A DNA stretch of 64,000 nt, taken from NCBI GenBank assembly GCA_903907995.1, contig CAIVQH010000023.1:62001-126000 (forward strand). The letters are read 5' to 3'. The notes below the pieces were generated by a model. That model saw nothing but the letters and a program-made list of their open reading frames with translations. It was not told the DNA's origin and made no database searches. Numbering within the stretch: the stretch's first letter is position 1; each line of letters begins with the position of its first letter. Shown here in pieces: positions 6,304 through 59,060 of the stretch. Made by a program: the position numbers and the translations under genes. This stretch comes from an uncultured Verrucomicrobiota bacterium. Lineage in GTDB: Bacteria; Verrucomicrobiota; Verrucomicrobiia; Limisphaerales; UBA9464.

Positions 6304-6534
6304 CTACGGCGCGTAATGCGGGGGCTTTTGCTGGTTTCCGGCCATCCGCTCCAGTTCCTGCGTCTGCATGGTCGTGTCGATCTGTTCCAGCCGCTTTTGC
6401 AACCGGGTCAGCAGCTTGCCCTGTGCGATGACAGCCCCGTTCAGCTCATCGTACTGGCGTTCCAGATGGGCGTGGCTGGCCTCCAGCTTTTCCAGCCGGG
6501 CGCTGAGTTGATGTTCACGGTCGCTCGGATTCAT
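6304..6534 (-). CDS. slyX: SlyX-like protein
   Basis: A 76-residue protein that is almost entirely predicted coiled coil (ARLEKLEASHAHLERQYD, then LQKRLEQIDTTMQ) and ends in the PPHY motif characteristic of SlyX. Length and tail match the family, whose function is not settled. The ATG is embedded in a 7-bp tandem array (6531-6570), so the repeat supplies the start codon. A second array touches the stop codon side. Confidence 0.82.
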   Translation of the reverse strand: MNPSDREHQLSARLEKLEASHAHLERQYDELNGAVIAQGKLLTRLQKRLEQIDTTMQTQELERMAGNQQKPPHYAP

Positions 6535-6570
6535 AACTCAAAACTCATAACTCATCATTCACAGCTCATC
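6531..6570 (+). repeat. Heptad tandem repeat between DUF2007 and slyX-like genes
   Basis: Units such as ATAACTC and AAAACTC repeat with period 7. The array spans the gap between two minus-strand genes, overlapping the start codon of the slyX-like gene and the last codons of the DUF2007-like gene. Confidence 0.68.
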
Positions 6571-7342: not shown

Positions 7343-7377
7343 AAGTTATGAGTTACAAGTTGCGAGTTGCGAGTGAT
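7343..7377 (+). repeat. Heptad tandem repeat upstream of membrane-protein gene
   Basis: Units GAGTTAC, AAGTTGC and GAGTTGC in tandem start six bases before the minus-strand start codon. Confidence 0.7.
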
Positions 7378-7410: not shown

Positions 7411-7452
7411 TGCCTCCCACCTCGCGTCTTCTGTCTCCTGTCTCCTCCGTCC
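7411..7452 (+). repeat. Heptad tandem repeat downstream of ruvX
   Basis: Six units with period 7 (for example TGTCTCC twice) end two bases before the ruvX stop codon. On the ruvX coding strand the array is purine-rich. Confidence 0.66.
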
Positions 7453-9868: not shown

Positions 9869-9897
9869 GGAAGTTACGAGTTACGAGTTGCGAGTGG
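9869..9897 (+). repeat. Heptad tandem repeat after sugar isomerase gene
   Basis: Units of the AGTTACG type repeat with period 7, starting three bases after the stop codon. Confidence 0.68.
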
Positions 9898-17841: not shown

Positions 17842-19938
17842 ATGAATCTGCGCCTCTGCCTCCGAGCGGCCTTGCTCGCCCTGACCGCCGGCCCGGCCCT
17901 GGCCCAGGTTGTCCTGAACGAAGTGATGTATCACCCGCCGGAAGAGCGGGATGAGCTCCAGTACATCGAGCTGCACAATGCCGGGCCGGCCCCCGTAAGC
18001 CTGGCCGGCTGGACCTTGCGGAAAGGGGTCAAGTTCACCTTCCCCGCCGAGGCGACGCTACCGGCCGGAGGTTACGGCGTGCTCTGCCGGGATCGGGCGG
18101 CCTTCGCGCAGCAGTACGGGGCCGACGTGCCGGTGCTGGGGGAGTTTTCCGGGCACCTGAAGCACGGTGGAGAACGGCTCGAACTCGACGACGCCGGCGG
18201 CACGCTGGTGGACGCGCTGAAGTTCAGCGACCACGCCCCCTGGCCGCTTGCGGCGGATGGCGAATCGGCCTCGCTCGAACGCATCTGCCCCGCCGCACCG
18301 GGCACGCTGCCCGAAAATTGGACCTCCTCCCGTCTGCCGGCCACCGTGAGCCCCGCCGGCACACCCGGACGCCGCAACGACGCTTTTGCCAAGAACCTGC
18401 CCCCGATCGTGCGGGAGGTGGTCTTCACGAATGCCCTGCCGGAAAAACCGACGCCCGTGACCGCGACGGTCGAAGATGCCGACGGCGTGGAATCGGTGGC
18501 GCTGGTTTACCGCGTGATCGACAACAGCGCCAAGGCGGCTGAACAGTCGGTGGCGATGACCCGCACCGGTGGCGACGGCAAGTCGGGCACTTACGCCGCC
18601 GCGCTGCCACCGCAGCCGGCCGGCCGGCTGATCCGGTTCCAGATCGAGGCCCGCGACGCAACGGGCAGCACGCGGCGCTTCCCGGCAAACCATGAGCTGC
18701 GGCCGACGCTGTCCACCTTCGTCGCGGTAAACACCAACACGGCGCAGATCGGATTCTTCCAGCTGAAGCAGCTGGGACAGCGCGAACACGCGGGTTCCTC
18801 CTTCTTCCACTCCCGGGGGAGCCCCAGTCCCGCCGAGCCGACCGCGCCCAATGCCGCCCTGCTTTACCTGCCCGCCGGCGGCGGCGCGCCGATGACGTTT
18901 GACCACATCCACCTGGTCCCGCGCCAGGGCGGCTGGAAGGTGCATTTCAACAAGTTTCAGCCATTTGACGGGATGACCACGGTGAACGTGATCTTCGAGG
19001 AGGGCCGGCGGTGGGCGTTGTCGGAGGCGCTATCCTACGAGGTTTATCGCGCGTGTGATGTGCCGGCCCCGCAGTCGGGCCATTTGCGTGTGTGGGTGGA
19101 TGGCCGGCTGATCGGCTATCACCTGATGGTGGAGCAGCCGAACAAGACCTTTCTCCGCGAGCACGGCTTCGACCCGGGCGGCAACCTCTACAAACTGCTC
19201 TGGTATGGCCAGGGCCTGGCCGGGCAGCACGAGAAGAAGACGAACCTGCGCACCGGCCACGCCGATCTGGAGCAGCTCGTGGCGGGGCTGAAGGCCACCG
19301 CCAAAGATCCCGAGGCGCAGTGGCAGCTCATCCAGCAGAACTTCGCGGTGGATGAGTTCATCAATTACTACGCCGTCAACATGTGCATCCAGAACTGGGA
19401 CGGCTTCTTCAACAATTATTTCGCCTACCATGATCCGAAGGCGGAGGGTAAGTGGTATATCTTCCCCTGGGACGAGGACAAGACGTGGGGCGATTACAGC
19501 CAGGGCAACCAGCCGCCCGATGACTATCCCTGGGTCTCGATGCCGCTGACCTTCGGGATGAAAGGGGATCACGAACCGAAGGGGCCCAACCTGCCGCGTG
19601 AGTCAACCCCTTGGGGTTCAGTGGCGTGGTGGCGGCCGCCCGGCTGGTTTTCCGGACCGCTGCTGGCCAATCCGCAGTTCCGGCAGCGCTTTCTGGCGCG
19701 GCTCAAGGTGGTTGCCGAGACCATCTTCACCGAGGAAAAGTTCCTGCCCGTCATCAACGGCATGGAGCGCCGCCTGCAGTCCGAGGTCAGGCTGCGTGCC
19801 ACCGCCGAAGGCGAAGACGCGCAGGCGCGCGTGGTCGAATTCCGCAACCACATGGACTCATTGCGCTACCAGCTCAAGGGACGCCGGGAATTCATCCTGC
19901 AGGAACTGGCCAAAACCGGTCCCAAGCCCTCGCCTTGA
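17842..19938 (+). CDS. Secreted lamin-tail-domain / CotH-kinase-like protein
   Basis: A 698-residue protein from ATG 17842 with a signal peptide ending near ALAQ (residue 22). An N-terminal lamin-tail domain (LNEVMYHPP, then YIELHNAGPAPVSLAGW) is followed by an Ig-like region and a CotH domain. The CotH domain has VNVIFEEGRRWALSEALSYE, then NLYKL, NWDGFFNNYFAYHD and WYIFPWDEDKTWG; this last motif matches the atypical-kinase DxD region of spore-coat CotH. Verrucomicrobial members are exported, and their substrates are unknown. Confidence 0.88.
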   Translation: MNLRLCLRAALLALTAGPALAQVVLNEVMYHPPEERDELQYIELHNAGPAPVSLAGWTLRKGVKFTFPAEATLPAGGYGVLCRDRAAFAQQYGADVPVLGEFSGHLKHGGERLELDDAGGTLVDALKFSDHAPWPLAADGESASLERICPAAPGTLPENWTSSRLPATVSPAGTPGRRNDAFAKNLPPIVREVVFTNALPEKPTPVTATVEDADGVESVALVYRVIDNSAKAAEQSVAMTRTGGDGKSGTYAAALPPQPAGRLIRFQIEARDATGSTRRFPANHELRPTLSTFVAVNTNTAQIGFFQLKQLGQREHAGSSFFHSRGSPSPAEPTAPNAALLYLPAGGGAPMTFDHIHLVPRQGGWKVHFNKFQPFDGMTTVNVIFEEGRRWALSEALSYEVYRACDVPAPQSGHLRVWVDGRLIGYHLMVEQPNKTFLREHGFDPGGNLYKLLWYGQGLAGQHEKKTNLRTGHADLEQLVAGLKATAKDPEAQWQLIQQNFAVDEFINYYAVNMCIQNWDGFFNNYFAYHDPKAEGKWYIFPWDEDKTWGDYSQGNQPPDDYPWVSMPLTFGMKGDHEPKGPNLPRESTPWGSVAWWRPPGWFSGPLLANPQFRQRFLARLKVVAETIFTEEKFLPVINGMERRLQSEVRLRATAEGEDAQARVVEFRNHMDSLRYQLKGRREFILQELAKTGPKPSP

Positions 19939-20789: not shown

Positions 20790-21111
20790 ATTCTTCGGCG
20801 CACAGGCTGTCCCCGTCGCCCCAAAAACGCCAGCGAGGTTGAGGGGATTTACGATTTATGATTTACGATTTGTGGGCACCACATCGCCCGGGTCGAGGTG
20901 ACCAGCAGGACGGAAGATAGAGCCTCTTCACATCGTCTCCTACGAGCGCGCCGGCCAATGCGTGGGCTACAAACGGTGATCAATCCATGGGTCGTTGGGA
21001 GTGGTTCAGCATTGGGTGTTGAAAGCACATTGTCGGAACCTGAGTTCGCCATAGCCGCGGACCGCTCCTTGGGGCACTTTCGCCCGACGAATTTTTAACG
21101 GCCCGGAAGCC
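20790..21111 (+). other. 322-bp gap with a heptad repeat
   Basis: It holds the array at 20846-20873 and no supported gene. It separates the divergent TIR-WD40 remnant and the methyltransferase gene. Confidence 0.45.
20846..20873 (+). repeat. Heptad tandem repeat upstream of TIR-WD40 remnant
   Basis: Four nearly perfect units: GATTTAC, GATTTAT, GATTTAC, GATTTGT. Confidence 0.75.
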
Positions 21112-42273: not shown

Positions 42274-42312
42274 TTCATCATTCATCCTTCCCACTTCATC
42301 CTTCTCCCACCC
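42274..42312 (+). repeat. Heptad repeat between SDR and SIS genes
   Basis: Units of the CATCCTT type with period 7, pyrimidine-rich on the SIS coding strand. The start contains an inverted relative of the 41365 word. Confidence 0.6.
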
Positions 42313-42336: not shown

Positions 42337-43110
42337 GTGACATCCGCTTACTTGCAGCAGTGCCGCGGCCTGATTGACGCGGTGGAGCGCCAGACCGCCA
42401 CCATCGAGGCTGCCGCCGACCTTTTTGCCGGGACTATTCTGGCGGGCCGCATGGTGCATTTGTTCGGCTCCGGCCACAGCCGCATCCTCGTCGAGGAGAT
42501 GTGGCCACGTTACGGCTCGTTCCCCGGCTTCAATCCGATTGTCGAGCTGTCGCTGAGCTTCCACAACCTGGTCGTCGGCGCGAACGGCCAGCGGCAGGCG
42601 ATGTTCCTTGAAAACGTGTCGGGCCTCGCCGAACGCATCCTCCGCAACTACGACCTGTCGCCGCTGGACAGCGCGCTGGTGGTCTCCTCCAGCGGTTGCA
42701 ATGTGGTGCCCGTCGAGATGGCGCAGGAGTTCAAACGGCGCGGCGTGAAGGTGGTCGCCATCATTTCCCGCGCCCACAGCGACGCCAGCACCAGCCGGCA
42801 CAAGGACGGCAAAAAGCTGCAGGACTTCGCGGACCTCGTGCTCGATACCGGTGCCCCGGTGGGCGACGCCATGGTCGAAGTGCCCGGACTCGATACCCCG
42901 GTCTCCCCCGGCTCGACGGTCGGCGGCTGCCTCCTAGTAAACTCGATCAAGGCGGAGGTGGCCGCCCGGCTCACCGCCGCCGGCCAGCCGCCGAAAGTAT
43001 TGACCGCCGCCGCCCGCGTCGGAGCCAAGCGCGCGACCGAGCTCTTCGAGGGCGCCTATGACGAGCATGCGCGCAGGCTCGCGAAGCTCTACGAGAGGAT
43101 CGGCCTGTGA
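42337..43110 (+). CDS. SIS-domain phosphosugar-binding protein (UPF0309-like)
   Basis: A 257-residue protein from GTG 42337 with a single SIS domain: GRMVHLFGSGHSRILVEEM early and SALVVSSSGCNVVPVEMAQE mid-protein, followed by VVAIISRAHSDASTSRH. It has the spacing of the UPF0309 group found beside amino-sugar genes. It overlaps purU by four bases (GTGA), so the pair is translationally coupled. Confidence 0.85.
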   Translation: MTSAYLQQCRGLIDAVERQTATIEAAADLFAGTILAGRMVHLFGSGHSRILVEEMWPRYGSFPGFNPIVELSLSFHNLVVGANGQRQAMFLENVSGLAERILRNYDLSPLDSALVVSSSGCNVVPVEMAQEFKRRGVKVVAIISRAHSDASTSRHKDGKKLQDFADLVLDTGAPVGDAMVEVPGLDTPVSPGSTVGGCLLVNSIKAEVAARLTAAGQPPKVLTAAARVGAKRATELFEGAYDEHARRLAKLYERIGL

Positions 43111-43952
43111 CTTCCGCCAAGCCTTCCATCCTCCTCGTCGAATGCGCCGACCGCGCCGGCCTCGTGCATGGCATCACGGGCGTGCTCTTCCGCCTCGGCG
43201 TCAATGTCGTGGGCAACCACGAGTTTGTGGACCGGACTTCGCAGCGCTTCTACATGCGCACGGAGTTTGATGGCGCTGTGAATGCACACACGCTGCTGGG
43301 GGAGCTGCGTGGGGTGCTGCCGGCCGGTGCCGATGTGCGTCTGTCCAAGCAGGAACCCAAGCGCGTTGTGGTGCTCGCCTCCAAGGAGCACCATTGCCTC
43401 GCCGACATATTGGTTCGCCACGCCTTCCACGAACTGAACGCAAAGTTGGAAGCGGTCATCAGCAACCACGAGGTATTGGAACCGCTGGTGCGGAAATTCG
43501 AACTGCCGTTCCACTACCTGCCACACGGCACGCTGTCCCGCGAGGTCCACGAAGCTGAGGTGCTGACATTGGTGCAGAAATACCGTCCGGACTATCTGGT
43601 GCTCGCCAAGTATATGCGCGTGCTCAGCCCGTGGCTGGTGCGGCACTTCCCGGCGCGCATCGTGAACATCCACCACTCGTTCCTGCCGGCGTTTGCTGGT
43701 GCCCGGCCCTATCACCAGGCCTTCGAGCGCGGCGTAAAGGTGATCGGTGCAACCGCGCACTTCGTGACGGACGAACTGGATGCCGGCCCCATCATCCTCC
43801 AACAGGTCATCGGCGTGGATCACACCCATACGGCCGAGGATCTCGTCCATTCAGGCCGCGACGTCGAACAGGCCGTGCTGGCGCGCGCGTTGAAGCTGGT
43901 CTTCGAAGATCGGGTGTTTCTCTGCGGAAACCGGACCGTGATCTTTGACTGA
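43107..43952 (+). CDS. purU: Formyltetrahydrofolate deformylase PurU
   Basis: A 281-residue protein. The N-terminal ACT domain starts ILLVECADRAGLVHGITGVL. The formyltransferase-like domain contains SNHEVLEPLVRKFELPFHYL, VLAKYMRVLSPWLV and INIHHSFLPAFAGARPYHQA, with the His and Asp (ATAHFVTDELDAGPII) used for hydrolysis. It releases formate and THF from 10-formyl-THF. Length is normal. Confidence 0.95.
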   Translation: MTSAKPSILLVECADRAGLVHGITGVLFRLGVNVVGNHEFVDRTSQRFYMRTEFDGAVNAHTLLGELRGVLPAGADVRLSKQEPKRVVVLASKEHHCLADILVRHAFHELNAKLEAVISNHEVLEPLVRKFELPFHYLPHGTLSREVHEAEVLTLVQKYRPDYLVLAKYMRVLSPWLVRHFPARIVNIHHSFLPAFAGARPYHQAFERGVKVIGATAHFVTDELDAGPIILQQVIGVDHTHTAEDLVHSGRDVEQAVLARALKLVFEDRVFLCGNRTVIFD

Positions 43953-43982
43953 AAGGATGAATTAGGAATTATGAATGATGAA
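43951..43982 (+). repeat. Left outer arm of S23 unit
   Basis: A 32-bp word with internal 7-bp period (GAATTAG, GAATTAT). Its reverse complement recurs at 44477-44508 with one mismatch. The arm begins inside the purU stop codon. Confidence 0.85.
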
Positions 43983-44026
43983 TTGGGACCGGGCGAGGGT
44001 ACACGAAGGTGTGCAGGGCCGAATTT

Positions 44027-44059
44027 GAAAGGATGAGGCGAGGAATCATGAATGATGAA
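44027..44059 (+). repeat. Left inner copy of S23 repeat, contains the start codon
   Basis: A degenerate copy of the 43951 arm. Its ATGAATGATGAA end forms codons 1-4 (Met-Asn-Asp-Glu) of the S23 gene. Confidence 0.75.
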
Positions 44060-44413
44060 ACACAGCCTCCTGATCTTCGGGTGCGTACGAAGGCGTTCGC
44101 GTTACGCATCATCAAAATGTTCGGCCAACTGCCAAAATCCGAAGTGGCCAGGGTGGTAGGGAAGCAGGTGCTTCGTTCTGGCACCTCGGTGGGGGCGAAC
44201 TACCGCGAGGCCTACCGGGCACGATCCAAAGCGGAATTCGTAGCCAAGATGGGCGATTGCTTGCGTGAGTTGGAGGAAACCTCCTATTGGCTGGAACTCC
44301 TGGTTGAGAGCGGCAGTGTAACGGCGAAAAAGCTGGCCTCATTGCTTCAGGAGACCGACGAACTGACAGCCATCTTCACAACCATCGTGAAACGCACCAA
44401 GGCATCCGCCTGA
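44048..44413 (+). CDS. Four-helix-bundle protein (23S rRNA-intervening-sequence/S23 family)
   Basis: A 121-residue protein starting MNDETQPPDLRVRTKAFALR. It has the S23 signature: helix 1, then QVLRSGTSVGANYREAYRARSKAEFVAKMGDCLRE, then EETSYWLELL and a C-terminal ETDELTAIFTTIVKRTK helix. The family was first seen inside 23S rRNA intervening sequences and also occurs as free genes; it forms pentameric barrels, and Avd of diversity-generating retroelements is a relative. Here the gene lies between purU and the MetE-like gene inside two nested inverted repeats, with start and stop codons in the inner copies. Confidence 0.9.
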   Translation: MNDETQPPDLRVRTKAFALRIIKMFGQLPKSEVARVVGKQVLRSGTSVGANYREAYRARSKAEFVAKMGDCLRELEETSYWLELLVESGSVTAKKLASLLQETDELTAIFTTIVKRTKASA

Positions 44414-44429
44414 TAATTCATCCTTTCCC
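44411..44429 (+). repeat. Right inner copy of S23 repeat, overlaps the stop codon
   Basis: It contains TAATTCATCCTTTC, the reverse complement of the start of the left arms. It begins at the TGA stop. Confidence 0.65.
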
Positions 44430-44476
44430 AGGCCGCCGGTCACTTCCACCGCTACCGTGAAACGAAGGTTTCTGTT

Positions 44477-44508
44477 TTCATAATTCATAATTCCTAATTC
44501 ATCCTTTC
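44477..44508 (+). repeat. Right outer arm of S23 unit
   Basis: The inverted copy of 43951-43982 (31 of 32 bases). It ends exactly one base before the ATG of the MetE-like gene. Confidence 0.85.
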
Positions 44509-45558
44509 ATGCAGTCCTCCCCTCTCAGAACTTCCGTCATTGGCAGCTACCCCTTTCCCGGTTGGCTCGAGTTGGCTTCGGTTCAATTGGAGCGCTTTGG
44601 GAAGGATGATTTCGCCGAATTGCAGGACGACGCCGTGATCTGCGCGCTGCACGATCAACTGGCCGCCGGCTTGGATGTGGTGACCGATGGCGAGCAGACG
44701 CGGCTCGATTTCAACCTGTCGTTCTACGGTTACATCCAAGGCATCGAATTGGAATCCGCATCGCCCCGGCGCTTCGGGCCACCCGCGCACGATCAGCGCG
44801 GCAAGCACCAGGTGGTCGCCCCGCTCGCCGCCCCGCGCGGCTTGGGTGCCGTCGAGGAATTCAAACGCCTCCAACGCCTCACCGCCTCACTGAATACTGG
44901 TTCACTGATTACTCTTAAAGCCAGCGTGCCGGGCCCCTACACCCTCAGCGGCCGGCTGCTGCCGAATGGCGCCCTCGGCTACCCTGACCGCTGGGCACTG
45001 ACGGAGGCGCTGCTGCCGCTGGTGCGCGCCGAGCTGGAGGCCTTGGTTGCCGCCGGCTGCACGGAGATCAGCGTCGATGAGCCGAGCATGAGCTGCTACG
45101 CCTACCGGGAGGACACCCGGCGCTTCGTGGACATCTTCAACCGCACGGTTGAGACCGTTGCCGGCCGCACGCGCGTCTGCACGCACCTGTGCTTTGGCAA
45201 CTACAAGGCCCGCGCGGTCGGCCCGCGCCAGATCGCGCCGATGTTCCCGGCCTTCCTCGACTTCAAGTGCGACGAGATGCATGTGGAGATGGCCAGCCGC
45301 GAATTCGCCGAACTGGAACTGATCGGCGATATCGCCAAGCGCATGGATGCCGCCGTCGGCATCGTGGACGTGAAGAGCTACTATCTGGAAACGCCGGAAG
45401 ACATCGCCCGCCGCGTGCAGCGTTGCCTGGAATTCGCCCCGGCCGACCGCCTGGTGTTCGCCCCCGACTGCGGCCTGAGCCAAACCGCGCGCTGGGCCGC
45501 GAAGCGCAAACTCGCCAGCCTGGTCGGCGGCGTGAAGCAGGTGCGAGGTACGATATAG
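44509..45558 (+). CDS. Cobalamin-independent methionine synthase (MetE C-terminal-like)
   Basis: A 349-residue single-domain protein of the MetE C-terminal/UROD-like fold. It opens SVIGSYPFPGWLELA. Zinc ligands are visible as H and C in THLCFGNYK, E in HVEMASRE, and C in FAPDCGLSQTARWAAK. DEPSM contains the Asp-Glu pair of the homocysteine site. Such short proteins transfer methyl groups in methionine synthesis from donors other than folate polyglutamate. A 7-bp-type repeat at 44884-44912 lies in frame before ASVPGPYTLSG. Confidence 0.85.
   Translation: MQSSPLRTSVIGSYPFPGWLELASVQLERFGKDDFAELQDDAVICALHDQLAAGLDVVTDGEQTRLDFNLSFYGYIQGIELESASPRRFGPPAHDQRGKHQVVAPLAAPRGLGAVEEFKRLQRLTASLNTGSLITLKASVPGPYTLSGRLLPNGALGYPDRWALTEALLPLVRAELEALVAAGCTEISVDEPSMSCYAYREDTRRFVDIFNRTVETVAGRTRVCTHLCFGNYKARAVGPRQIAPMFPAFLDFKCDEMHVEMASREFAELELIGDIAKRMDAAVGIVDVKSYYLETPEDIARRVQRCLEFAPADRLVFAPDCGLSQTARWAAKRKLASLVGGVKQVRGTI
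44884..44912 (+). repeat. Heptad-type repeat inside MetE-like gene
   Basis: Units TGAATAC, TGGTTCAC and TGATTAC in tandem encode the SLNTGSLIT stretch. Confidence 0.5.
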
Positions 45559-51407: not shown

Positions 51408-51640
51408 AGGGCTGAAAGCCCGTCCGAATAATGCCTGGTGTGAAGCGAGCGTCGCGCGTACAGCCCCAGGTTGAGTTCCCCAAAGCACCCAAGCGCTGTA
51501 AGCGCGTCCCAAGGTGGAGGTGGCCCTGAATCAGGCCTTCAGCCCTCAGACCTCAGACCTAACCGAAGGAGTTTGTCCCTGGGGCTTCGTTCACCGTGTT
51601 CGCTTCACCCCAGGCATTCCTCAGTCGCGCTTTCAGCCCT
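51408..51640. repeat. REPIN-like inverted pair
   Basis: Arm 1 at 51408-51470 starts AGGGCTGAAAGC, contains ATGCCTGG and GTGAAGCGA, and ends AGCCCCAGG. Arm 2 at 51578-51640 is its imperfect reverse complement. The ~107-bp centre includes a heptad array. This structure resembles REPIN elements mobilised by RAYT transposases; no RAYT gene is in the window. Confidence 0.75.
51538..51565 (+). repeat. Heptad repeat inside REPIN-like element
   Basis: Units CTCAGAC (twice) and relatives with period 7. Confidence 0.6.
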
Positions 51641-58216: not shown

Positions 58217-58244
58217 GCTTTTTCCTTTTTCCTTTTTAATTCCC
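58217..58244 (+). repeat. Heptad repeat downstream of ECF sigma gene
   Basis: CCTTTTT-type units with period 7 end three bases before the sigma stop codon. Confidence 0.6.
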
Positions 58245-59028: not shown

Positions 59029-59060
59029 GAATTACGAATTTCGAATTGCGAATTACGAGC
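59029..59060 (+). repeat. Heptad repeat upstream of ECF sigma gene
   Basis: Four clean units GAATTAC, GAATTTC, GAATTGC, GAATTAC lie 29 bases before the minus-strand start. Confidence 0.78.

Follow-up and report, generated by a model that had tools for sequence, protein, structure and literature searches.

An S23 gene between inverted heptamer arms in a verrucomicrobial operon: a candidate member of a dispersed hairpin-repeat family

Introduction

An uncultured Verrucomicrobiota bacterium of the lineage UBA9464 carries, in the 64,000-nucleotide stretch that we analyzed (contig CAIVQH010000023.1, positions 62,001 to 126,000, assembly GCA_903907995.1; hereafter the window), a small gene of the S23 family enclosed by inverted arrays of tandem heptamers. 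The gene (S23 / 23S_rRNA_IVP, 121 amino acids, 44048-44413, + strand) encodes a four-helix bundle and has purU as its upstream and a MetE-like gene as its downstream neighbor. To our knowledge, S23 genes have been familiar for about thirty years from inserts in 23S rRNA, with neither their function nor the way the inserts move explained. A reading of the window from its sequence alone had singled out the locus as a discrete mobile or recently inserted unit. Here we describe the unit and follow its architecture through the genome, the genus, the phylum and more distant bacteria. The comparison suggests that the S23 unit is probably the gene-bearing member of a dispersed family of hairpin repeats.

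Results

The S23 identity proposed from the sequence is well supported by profiles. PF05635 (71.8 bits against a cut-off of 33.8; E=6.5e-20) and TIGR02436 (95.2 bits against 24; E=2.6e-27) both match above cut-off, and PF05635 is the sole Pfam match of the protein, in which no transposase domain was found. The AlphaFold monomer model predicts four helices (pLDDT, the predicted local distance difference test, 93.5). In a VIA-align structure comparison its best PDB match is 2rld, an S23 protein of B. thetaiotaomicron (Z 18.4) whose entry has five chains, and 2gsc, the S23-fold protein Xcc0516 of X. campestris, reaches Z 15.6. An S23-family protein of X. campestris has been reported as a pentamer (PMC4990558). 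Avd, the accessory protein of diversity-generating retroelements (DGRs), scores Z 13.5 in DGR particles and 13.2 when free. Because unrelated helical bundles in the same list score Z 12-13, the link to Avd leans on the homology with PF05635 that has been suggested in print (PMC10053308).

Two outer arms enclose the gene. The left one (43950-43982, + strand) is of the type AAGGATG, AATTAGG, AATTATG, AATGATG followed by AA, and the right one (44477-44509, - strand) is its inverted copy. They are 33 nucleotides each and 97% complementary, which bears out the 31 matches in 32 positions counted earlier, and they reach the flanking genes, the left arm at the stop codon of purU (43950-43952) and the right arm ending on the A of the next ATG (44509). 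The unit fills the interval between the two codons, as the sequence-only reading had stated. Upstream lies purU (43107-43952, + strand; TIGR00655 above cut-off), and downstream the MetE-like gene (44509-45558, + strand), which matches PF01717 above cut-off and the MetE equivalogs only below it. The degenerate inner arms described in the same reading are also present. The left one (44027-44059, + strand) contributes the ATG and codons 2-4 of the S23 gene, and the right one (44411-44427, - strand) starts at the TGA stop (44411), its 14 nucleotides at 44414-44427 being perfectly complementary to the outer left arm. Spacers separate outer from inner arms at 43983-44025 and, on the + strand, at 44428-44476. 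When the RNA of 43930-44530 is folded the outer arms are predicted to pair (z -6.5 against 20 shuffles), so that an inverted-repeat stem surrounds the S23 insert. The unit had no PADLOC match as a defence system, and its best match to a known RNA family (sR53, with 15.2 bits where 49 are required) is at chance level.

We measured arms by locally aligning the 250 nucleotides upstream of a gene to the reverse complement of the 250 downstream, and counted a score of at least 18 as arms. The window locus scores 31. At control positions in the genus loci, inverted flank matches had a median score of 12 and none of 33 reached 22. The genome that holds the window (G000; 5.1 Mb in 60 contigs) has seven S23 genes; an identical search of 14 control genomes gave no match in any of them. 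By eye, each of the seven lies between inverted short-tandem arrays, with units GAAAACC, GGAGTCA, GATGGGA, GATTAA, GAATTAT, AAAGGTA and CTCCAAG. A common arm for all seven was considered and rejected, since every gene has its own unit, and the search for further S23 genes with the window's arms, suggested in the sequence-only reading, found none in this genome. The differing units mean that it is the architecture, not the arm sequence, that S23 genes have in common.

This architecture recurs widely. Across eight genomes of the genus (labelled G000 to G007) we found 44 S23 genes, and 36 of the 42 measured had arms, against 1 of 33 control positions at the same loci. In a set of 80 relatives from genome contigs (Verrucomicrobia, Chloroflexi, Acidobacteria, Planctomycetes, Bacteroidetes, Proteobacteria, a Nostoc, a Magasanikbacterium and others) the figures were 50/75 against 2/68. 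Short flanks removed two of the 44 genus loci and five of the 80 contig loci from these counts, and two of the 80 were also left out of a further measurement. Two smaller sets were scored without control positions. In other genera of the phylum 17 of 27 S23 loci had arms, counting only matches with a returned locus (three of the 30 returned were dropped, the window's own L001 and two below cut-off). Six complete plasmid records, fetched from 39 with a match (Pseudanabaena, Chlorohelix, Gloeocapsa, Nostoc, Bernardetia and Treponema saccharophilum), all gave arm scores of 19-36, two of the alignments (L338, L342) being AT-rich and less regular. As these plasmid records are complete, metagenome assembly does not account for the pattern.

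The arms also have a preferred period and length. The best period was 7 in 42 of 50 arms in the contig set and in 19 of 36 in the genus, where six arms had period 6 and eight had period 8. In 464 kb that contain no other S23 gene, the window's S23 locus held the only inverted pair of period-7 arrays within 1.5 kb; two period-8 inverted pairs were found besides, and degenerate pairs would escape the thresholds used (a mismatch score of -2 proved too strict, and a looser setting was adopted). Period-7 arrays at S23 genes peak in length at 30-32 nucleotides, with 40 of 104 in the contig set and 13 of 32 in the phylum set falling there; the genus distribution is broader (11 of 45). Such a length corresponds to four heptamer units plus two to four letters, or to five copies of a core. 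As the threshold lets in arrays of 18 nucleotides, the score cut-off does not create the peak. The ends of arrays are called by score and may overrun by a few letters. At one further locus in G000 (L084, C57, around 18993-19145) the right arm of an S23 gene has grown to about 150 nucleotides of GGAGTCA-type repeats, against about 39 in its sister species G004.

Arm sequence follows the S23 protein. Mean 5-mer overlap between arms rose from 0.035 for gene pairs with less than 30% protein identity to 0.151 for those with at least 70%, and at non-orthologous sites the Spearman correlation of arm with S23 identity was 0.29, a value matched by none of 300 permutations. This test used 86 of 124 loci (score of at least 18 and adequate flanks), with 56 pairs left out for similar flanks. 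It appears, then, that S23 lineages have their own arm sequences, at unrelated sites as well. At orthologous sites, 39 of 49 pairs had arms that fitted each other better inside one genome than between genomes, eight fitted worse and two were tied; these pairs are not independent.

The window's arm is itself dispersed. The pattern AAGGATGAANTAGGAATNATGAATNATGAA, with up to three mismatches, has 12 matches in G000 and 20 in G004, and none was found in the six other congeners (three of them less than 90% complete, one at 54%); the backward-pattern control gave 0 in all genomes. By arms and by protein, the window's S23 type occurs among the 44 genus genes only in G000 and G004, and the confinement of the arms to the two congeners with this S23 speaks for a repeat family and not for chance. 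Both genomes have one arm pair around the S23 gene, and both outer arms in the window match the pattern with zero mismatches. The remaining copies are gene-less pairs (C20:3096/3172 in G000; C52:23819/23966, C52:187562/187609 and C56:70260/70337 in G004, where the partner is weaker in two further pairs) or solo copies, among them one 1.6 kb upstream of the unit (42274-42303, - strand; G000:C23:104274-104303; two mismatches). By eye, some dispersed copies are common to G000 and G004 with the same flanks and others are not. The sequence-only reading had named arms found equally often without an S23 gene as evidence against its proposal of a mobile unit, and 10 of the 12 copies in G000 are indeed without one.

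Three further units show a similar tendency, with exceptions (overlapping matches counted): GTTGAA has 20 and 311 matches in the carriers of its S23, G006 and G007, GTTTTC has 24 and 5 in G000 and G002, and GGAGNC has 58 and 41 in G000 and G004. When the four units are pooled, the eight genome-unit pairs with the matching S23 have 5-311 matches, compared with 0-38 in the 24 pairs without it, 18 of which are zero (p=1.3e-5, the genomes being treated without correction for kinship). These counts take in the arms at the S23 gene itself. The backward control for GTTTTC was kept out of the main test because the reversed pattern looks like AAAAGGC, the unit of another S23 gene; with it added, a second figure is p=2.2e-6. 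G007 has an octamer family, GTTGAANN, with 311 matches (overlaps counted) and at least seven inverted pairs about 190-290 nucleotides apart among the places listed.

S23 units favor the junctions of co-directional genes. By codon usage, the S23 gene lies on the strand of both neighbors at 34 of the 44 genus loci and opposite to both at one, the remaining nine being not fully assigned; orthologous sites enter this count more than once. Assigning strand by the longest open reading frame (ORF) gives a different result in the genus (14 '++' and 9 '--' of 44), and we prefer codon usage there, given the many long antisense ORFs in this high-GC genus. In the contig set the longest-ORF method gives 45 '++' and 3 '--' of 80, compared with 22 and 27 for 79 control positions, and in all six annotated plasmid loci both neighbors are on the S23 strand. 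The neighbors identified by profile include metK/ahcY, fabZ/lpxA, sdhA-/sdhB-type and livG-/livF-type pairs, a phosphoadenylyl-sulfate reductase type and cysN. Several of these are sub-cut-off fragments, and cysD was named by eye.

By our grouping, 36 of the 44 genus loci share their site with at least one other of the eight genomes, often the closest pairs only. What occupies a junction differs from genome to genome. Before cysD, G006 and G007 have an S23 gene with GTTGAAG arms, G000 and G004 a gene-less arm pair of a different unit, and G001 a GxxExxY gene (L244) with arms of about 10-nucleotide units. Between livG and livF, five genomes have AAAAGGC-type arms, with an internal stop in the S23 of G007, and G004 has another S23 with different arms. 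Between metK and ahcY, G000 and G002 have S23; G003 and G004 have gene-less pairs, G007 has other sequence and G005 nothing. The fabZ-lpxA junction holds S23 in G004 and G005 and is empty in G000, G002, G003, G006 and G007. At sdhA-sdhB, S23 occurs in G004 and no insert in G002, G003, G005 or G007, and G000 has an ORF6N gene (PF10543) and an ORF without Pfam match (L208 521-1626), where the right arm is similar and a left one is not evident. At yet another site GxxExxY in G000 corresponds to S23 in five congeners. The GxxExxY genes (PF13366; loci L013, L014, L015 and L239-L245, one of 11 rows being dropped as a fragment) had arms in 10 of 10 cases measured with 350-nucleotide flanks and the same score threshold, without control positions, and by eye their units are of about 8-10 nucleotides. 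Taken together, these alignments indicate that operon junctions exchange whole cassettes, be they S23 types, GxxExxY, ORF6N, gene-less hairpins or nothing.

Comparison with empty sites at other S23 loci places the insert, by eye, in the stop-to-start spacer. The cleanest empty site is fabZ-lpxA in G000, where the insert of G004 occupies that spacer. No target-site duplication was evident by eye between the filled and the empty form at this one clean site. The idea that units are copied from the target, hinted at there by GAACGG, was dropped, as it is not apparent at the other sites read. In three genomes (L060, L059, L069) GATCTCC arrays lie, by eye, inside the apparent first codons of cysN, and an arm may thus have been absorbed into coding sequence.

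The S23 gene is under purifying selection. The ratio of nonsynonymous to synonymous divergence (dN/dS) is 0.03-0.21 in nine of ten pairs, which implies that the protein is kept, and 0.58 in the tenth. For the window's S23 in G000 and G004 it is 0.06. Synonymous divergence at this locus is 1.38 for S23, near saturation, and 0.47 for the MetE-like gene; at three other sites of the same two genomes the S23 values are 2.03, 0.34 and 0.10. This spread suggests that some S23 copies are vertical and some replaced.

G004 also has an S23 gene at the purU-metE junction, with single arms. The window site is consequently not a fresh insertion, and at most the nesting there is recent. In the earlier proposal of a discrete mobile or recent unit, it is the discrete, repeat-bounded form that stands, and proves general; the recency does not. 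No clean empty purU-metE site was available in the genus, where metE was found in seven of eight genomes and purU, by eye, is not adjacent to it in the five besides G000 and G004. The right spacer (44428-44476) resembles the 3' end of the G004 S23 gene (score 15, reached by 0/500 shuffles, or 1/500 against the whole gene) more than that of the window's own gene (score 11, 12/500), and is likely a remnant of an older S23 copy. A similar origin for the left spacer was rejected, its similarity to an S23 5' end being non-significant (39/500 shuffles at best). There is moderate evidence from these alignments that a second S23 cassette is nested in an older one at the window site, or has replaced its middle.

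Eight more tandem 7-mer arrays lie in the window away from the S23 gene and without a strong inverted partner (6531-6561, 7344-7374, 7426-7446, 9872-9895, 20846-20871, 51535-51560, 58218-58237 and 59029-59058). Those at 6531 and 7344 show a weak inverted match to each other, separated by about 780 nucleotides. The array at 9872-9895 and locus L289 of G004 are apparently at the same junction, with an AGTTACG array in G000 and an arm of the AAGGATGAATTAGG type in G004.

Discussion

Our comparison of S23 loci suggests that the unit in the window is probably the gene-bearing member of a REPIN-like dispersed family of hairpin repeats. The unit consists of an S23 gene between two inverted arms of about 31 nucleotides, each of about four and a half tandem heptamers. 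The same lineage-specific arm recurs at other places in the genome, either as inverted pairs without a gene or as solo copies. The S23 protein, an Avd-like four-helix bundle and reportedly a homopentamer, may recognize its own arms as RNA or single-stranded DNA and help the hairpins get copied into new junctions. Pairing of the arms could make the insert tolerable in a transcript, much like the RNase III-processed stem of the Coxiella insert, and the S23-bearing 23S rRNA insert would then be the same element in an rRNA setting. The window itself seems to have a second cassette nested in an older one. That S23 units move at all we infer from the comparison of genomes.

Several observations weigh against this explanation. 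No transposition was seen, and the unit encodes no enzyme able to transpose it. With 36 of 44 genus loci at common sites, movement of the gene itself must be rare. A score of 18 was not reached at 6 of 42 genus and 25 of 75 other S23 genes. Heptamer arrays are common away from S23 (8 of the 10 in the window), and the 25 strongest period-7 arrays in the window plus 400 kb, nearly all off S23, have no clear length peak (8 have three units, 6 four and 8 five). At 8 of the 49 orthologous pairs, the window site included, the arms match better across genomes. Dispersed matches also occur in genomes without the matching S23 (38, 11 and 3 with three zeros for GTTGAA; 18 and 1 with four zeros for GTTTTC; 2 with five zeros for GGAGNC), and the backward controls total 1 for GTTGAA, 75 for GTTTTC (35 in G003) and 19 for GGAGNC (17 in G003).

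It is possible to see in S23 an ordinary, non-mobile operon gene whose arms form an RNase III-type stem in the mRNA, their complementarity kept by selection for pairing. The shared strand with both neighbors at 34 of 44 loci, the predicted pairing of the outer arms (z -6.5), the better fit of arms within genomes in 39 of 49 orthologous pairs and the excision of the Coxiella insert by RNase III (PMC4990558) would all agree with this. We nevertheless consider such a stem an unlikely full account, as it leaves unexplained why gene-less pairs and solo arms are confined to genomes with that S23, and why whole cassettes are replaced by other gene families. Passive placement, in which slippage at junctions produces 7-mer arrays and S23, GxxExxY and ORF6N genes settle between them by chance, finds some support in the S23-free arrays of the window and in the dispersed heptamer repeats known from other bacteria (PMC4692102, PMC4679880). 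However, at the thresholds used the only period-7 inverted pair within 1.5 kb in 464 kb is the S23 locus itself, and arm sequence follows S23 lineage across phyla, which together make chance settlement improbable.

Two other routes would make the unit mobile by different means. The match of the S23 fold to Avd in DGR reverse transcriptase particles (Z 13.5) and the orientation of S23 with its neighbors are compatible with a retro-type mechanism, whereby an Avd-like S23 hands the hairpin RNA to a reverse transcriptase of the host or of another element, acting in trans, which copies it into junctions of transcribed operons. We think this quite unlikely: there is no reverse transcriptase among the immediate neighbors, purU and the MetE-like gene (the genome was not searched for one), and the Z of 12-13 for unrelated bundles in the same list weakens the structural argument. 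A classical DDE transposon or miniature inverted-repeat transposable element would likewise have inverted termini and gene-less derivatives, but three results make it highly implausible: the absence of a transposase domain, a cleanest empty site with no target-site duplication evident by eye, and termini that vary between elements.

Returning to the REPIN-like family, it is tempting to speculate further that a new class of mobile hairpins is read by S23 proteins. The pentamer would read five cores spaced 7 nucleotides apart in its own arm, and the pair of repeat and protein would spread hairpins with and without a gene to operon junctions in many bacterial phyla, lacking a transposase of its own; rRNA inserts would be landed copies, and GxxExxY and ORF6N genes would ride on or drive sister classes. 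We regard this extended version as doubtful. The link between S23 lineage and arm nonetheless gives the protein a testable candidate substrate, and could unite the heptamer repeats so far described independently from Coxiella and Xanthomonas. On this view the rRNA inserts become a single instance of a broader element. The comparison also shows operon junctions as slots in which different small genes take each other's place along with their arms. The occurrence of this architecture across many bacteria suggests that one kind of mobile genetic unit has been overlooked.

The nearest prior art appears to be the Coxiella heptamer. As described in PMC4990558, the 23S insert of that organism has three tandem GACAGAT heptamers (in some strains two) ahead of an S23 ORF with sense-strand orientation. 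RNase III cleaves within the inverted-repeat stem, and the authors recall older proposals of mobility for 23S inserts. The 23S rRNA intervening sequences of Coxiella and Leptospira thus resemble our unit in the sense-strand ORF and the stem, and that of Coxiella also in the heptamers before the ORF. They differ in location, the window unit lying in a protein operon (purU/MetE-like) and not in a 23S rRNA gene, and in that the window's arms are dispersed and its S23 is under purifying selection, whereas the Coxiella ORF is reported as decaying and probably unexpressed. In Xanthomonas, heptameric GGGAATC repeats form dispersed arrays, 186 in one genome and 183 in another, which mostly have four units and include 70 and 75 convergent pairs, in intergenic positions shortly after the upstream ORF (PMC4692102). 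The genome with 186 arrays and 70 convergent pairs is that of X. campestris, which also has the S23-fold protein Xcc0516 (PDB 2gsc). The authors treat the arrays as G-quadruplex elements, and the main text of that paper contains neither 'S23' nor 'four-helix'. Among the matches listed in a PubMed Central search, whose reach excludes preprints and most subscription journals, no paper connects S23 or four-helix-bundle proteins with dispersed or inverted heptamer arms. Avd of the DGRs shares the four-helix bundle fold (Z 13.5), but the window's S23 has purU and the MetE-like gene as immediate neighbors and no reverse transcriptase there, the wider context being unscanned.

In their behavior a close counterpart is offered by the REPINs, inverted doublets of repetitive extragenic palindromic (REP) sequences that are served by RAYT transposases and have more copies where a RAYT is present (PMC3116915, PMC8049555). 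Both systems have short extragenic repeats, inverted doublets capable of forming hairpins and solo remnants, and in both the repeats also flank the associated gene and are more numerous in genomes that bear it. The S23 unit differs in its protein, a four-helix bundle and not a RAYT transposase, in its arm, which by eye is a tandem 7-mer array rather than a small palindrome, and in the swapping of units and cargo at the same sites. Having neither a RAYT transposase nor a place in 23S rRNA, it is a member of neither group; in behavior the S23 unit resembles a REPIN/RAYT system, in build a 23S insert.

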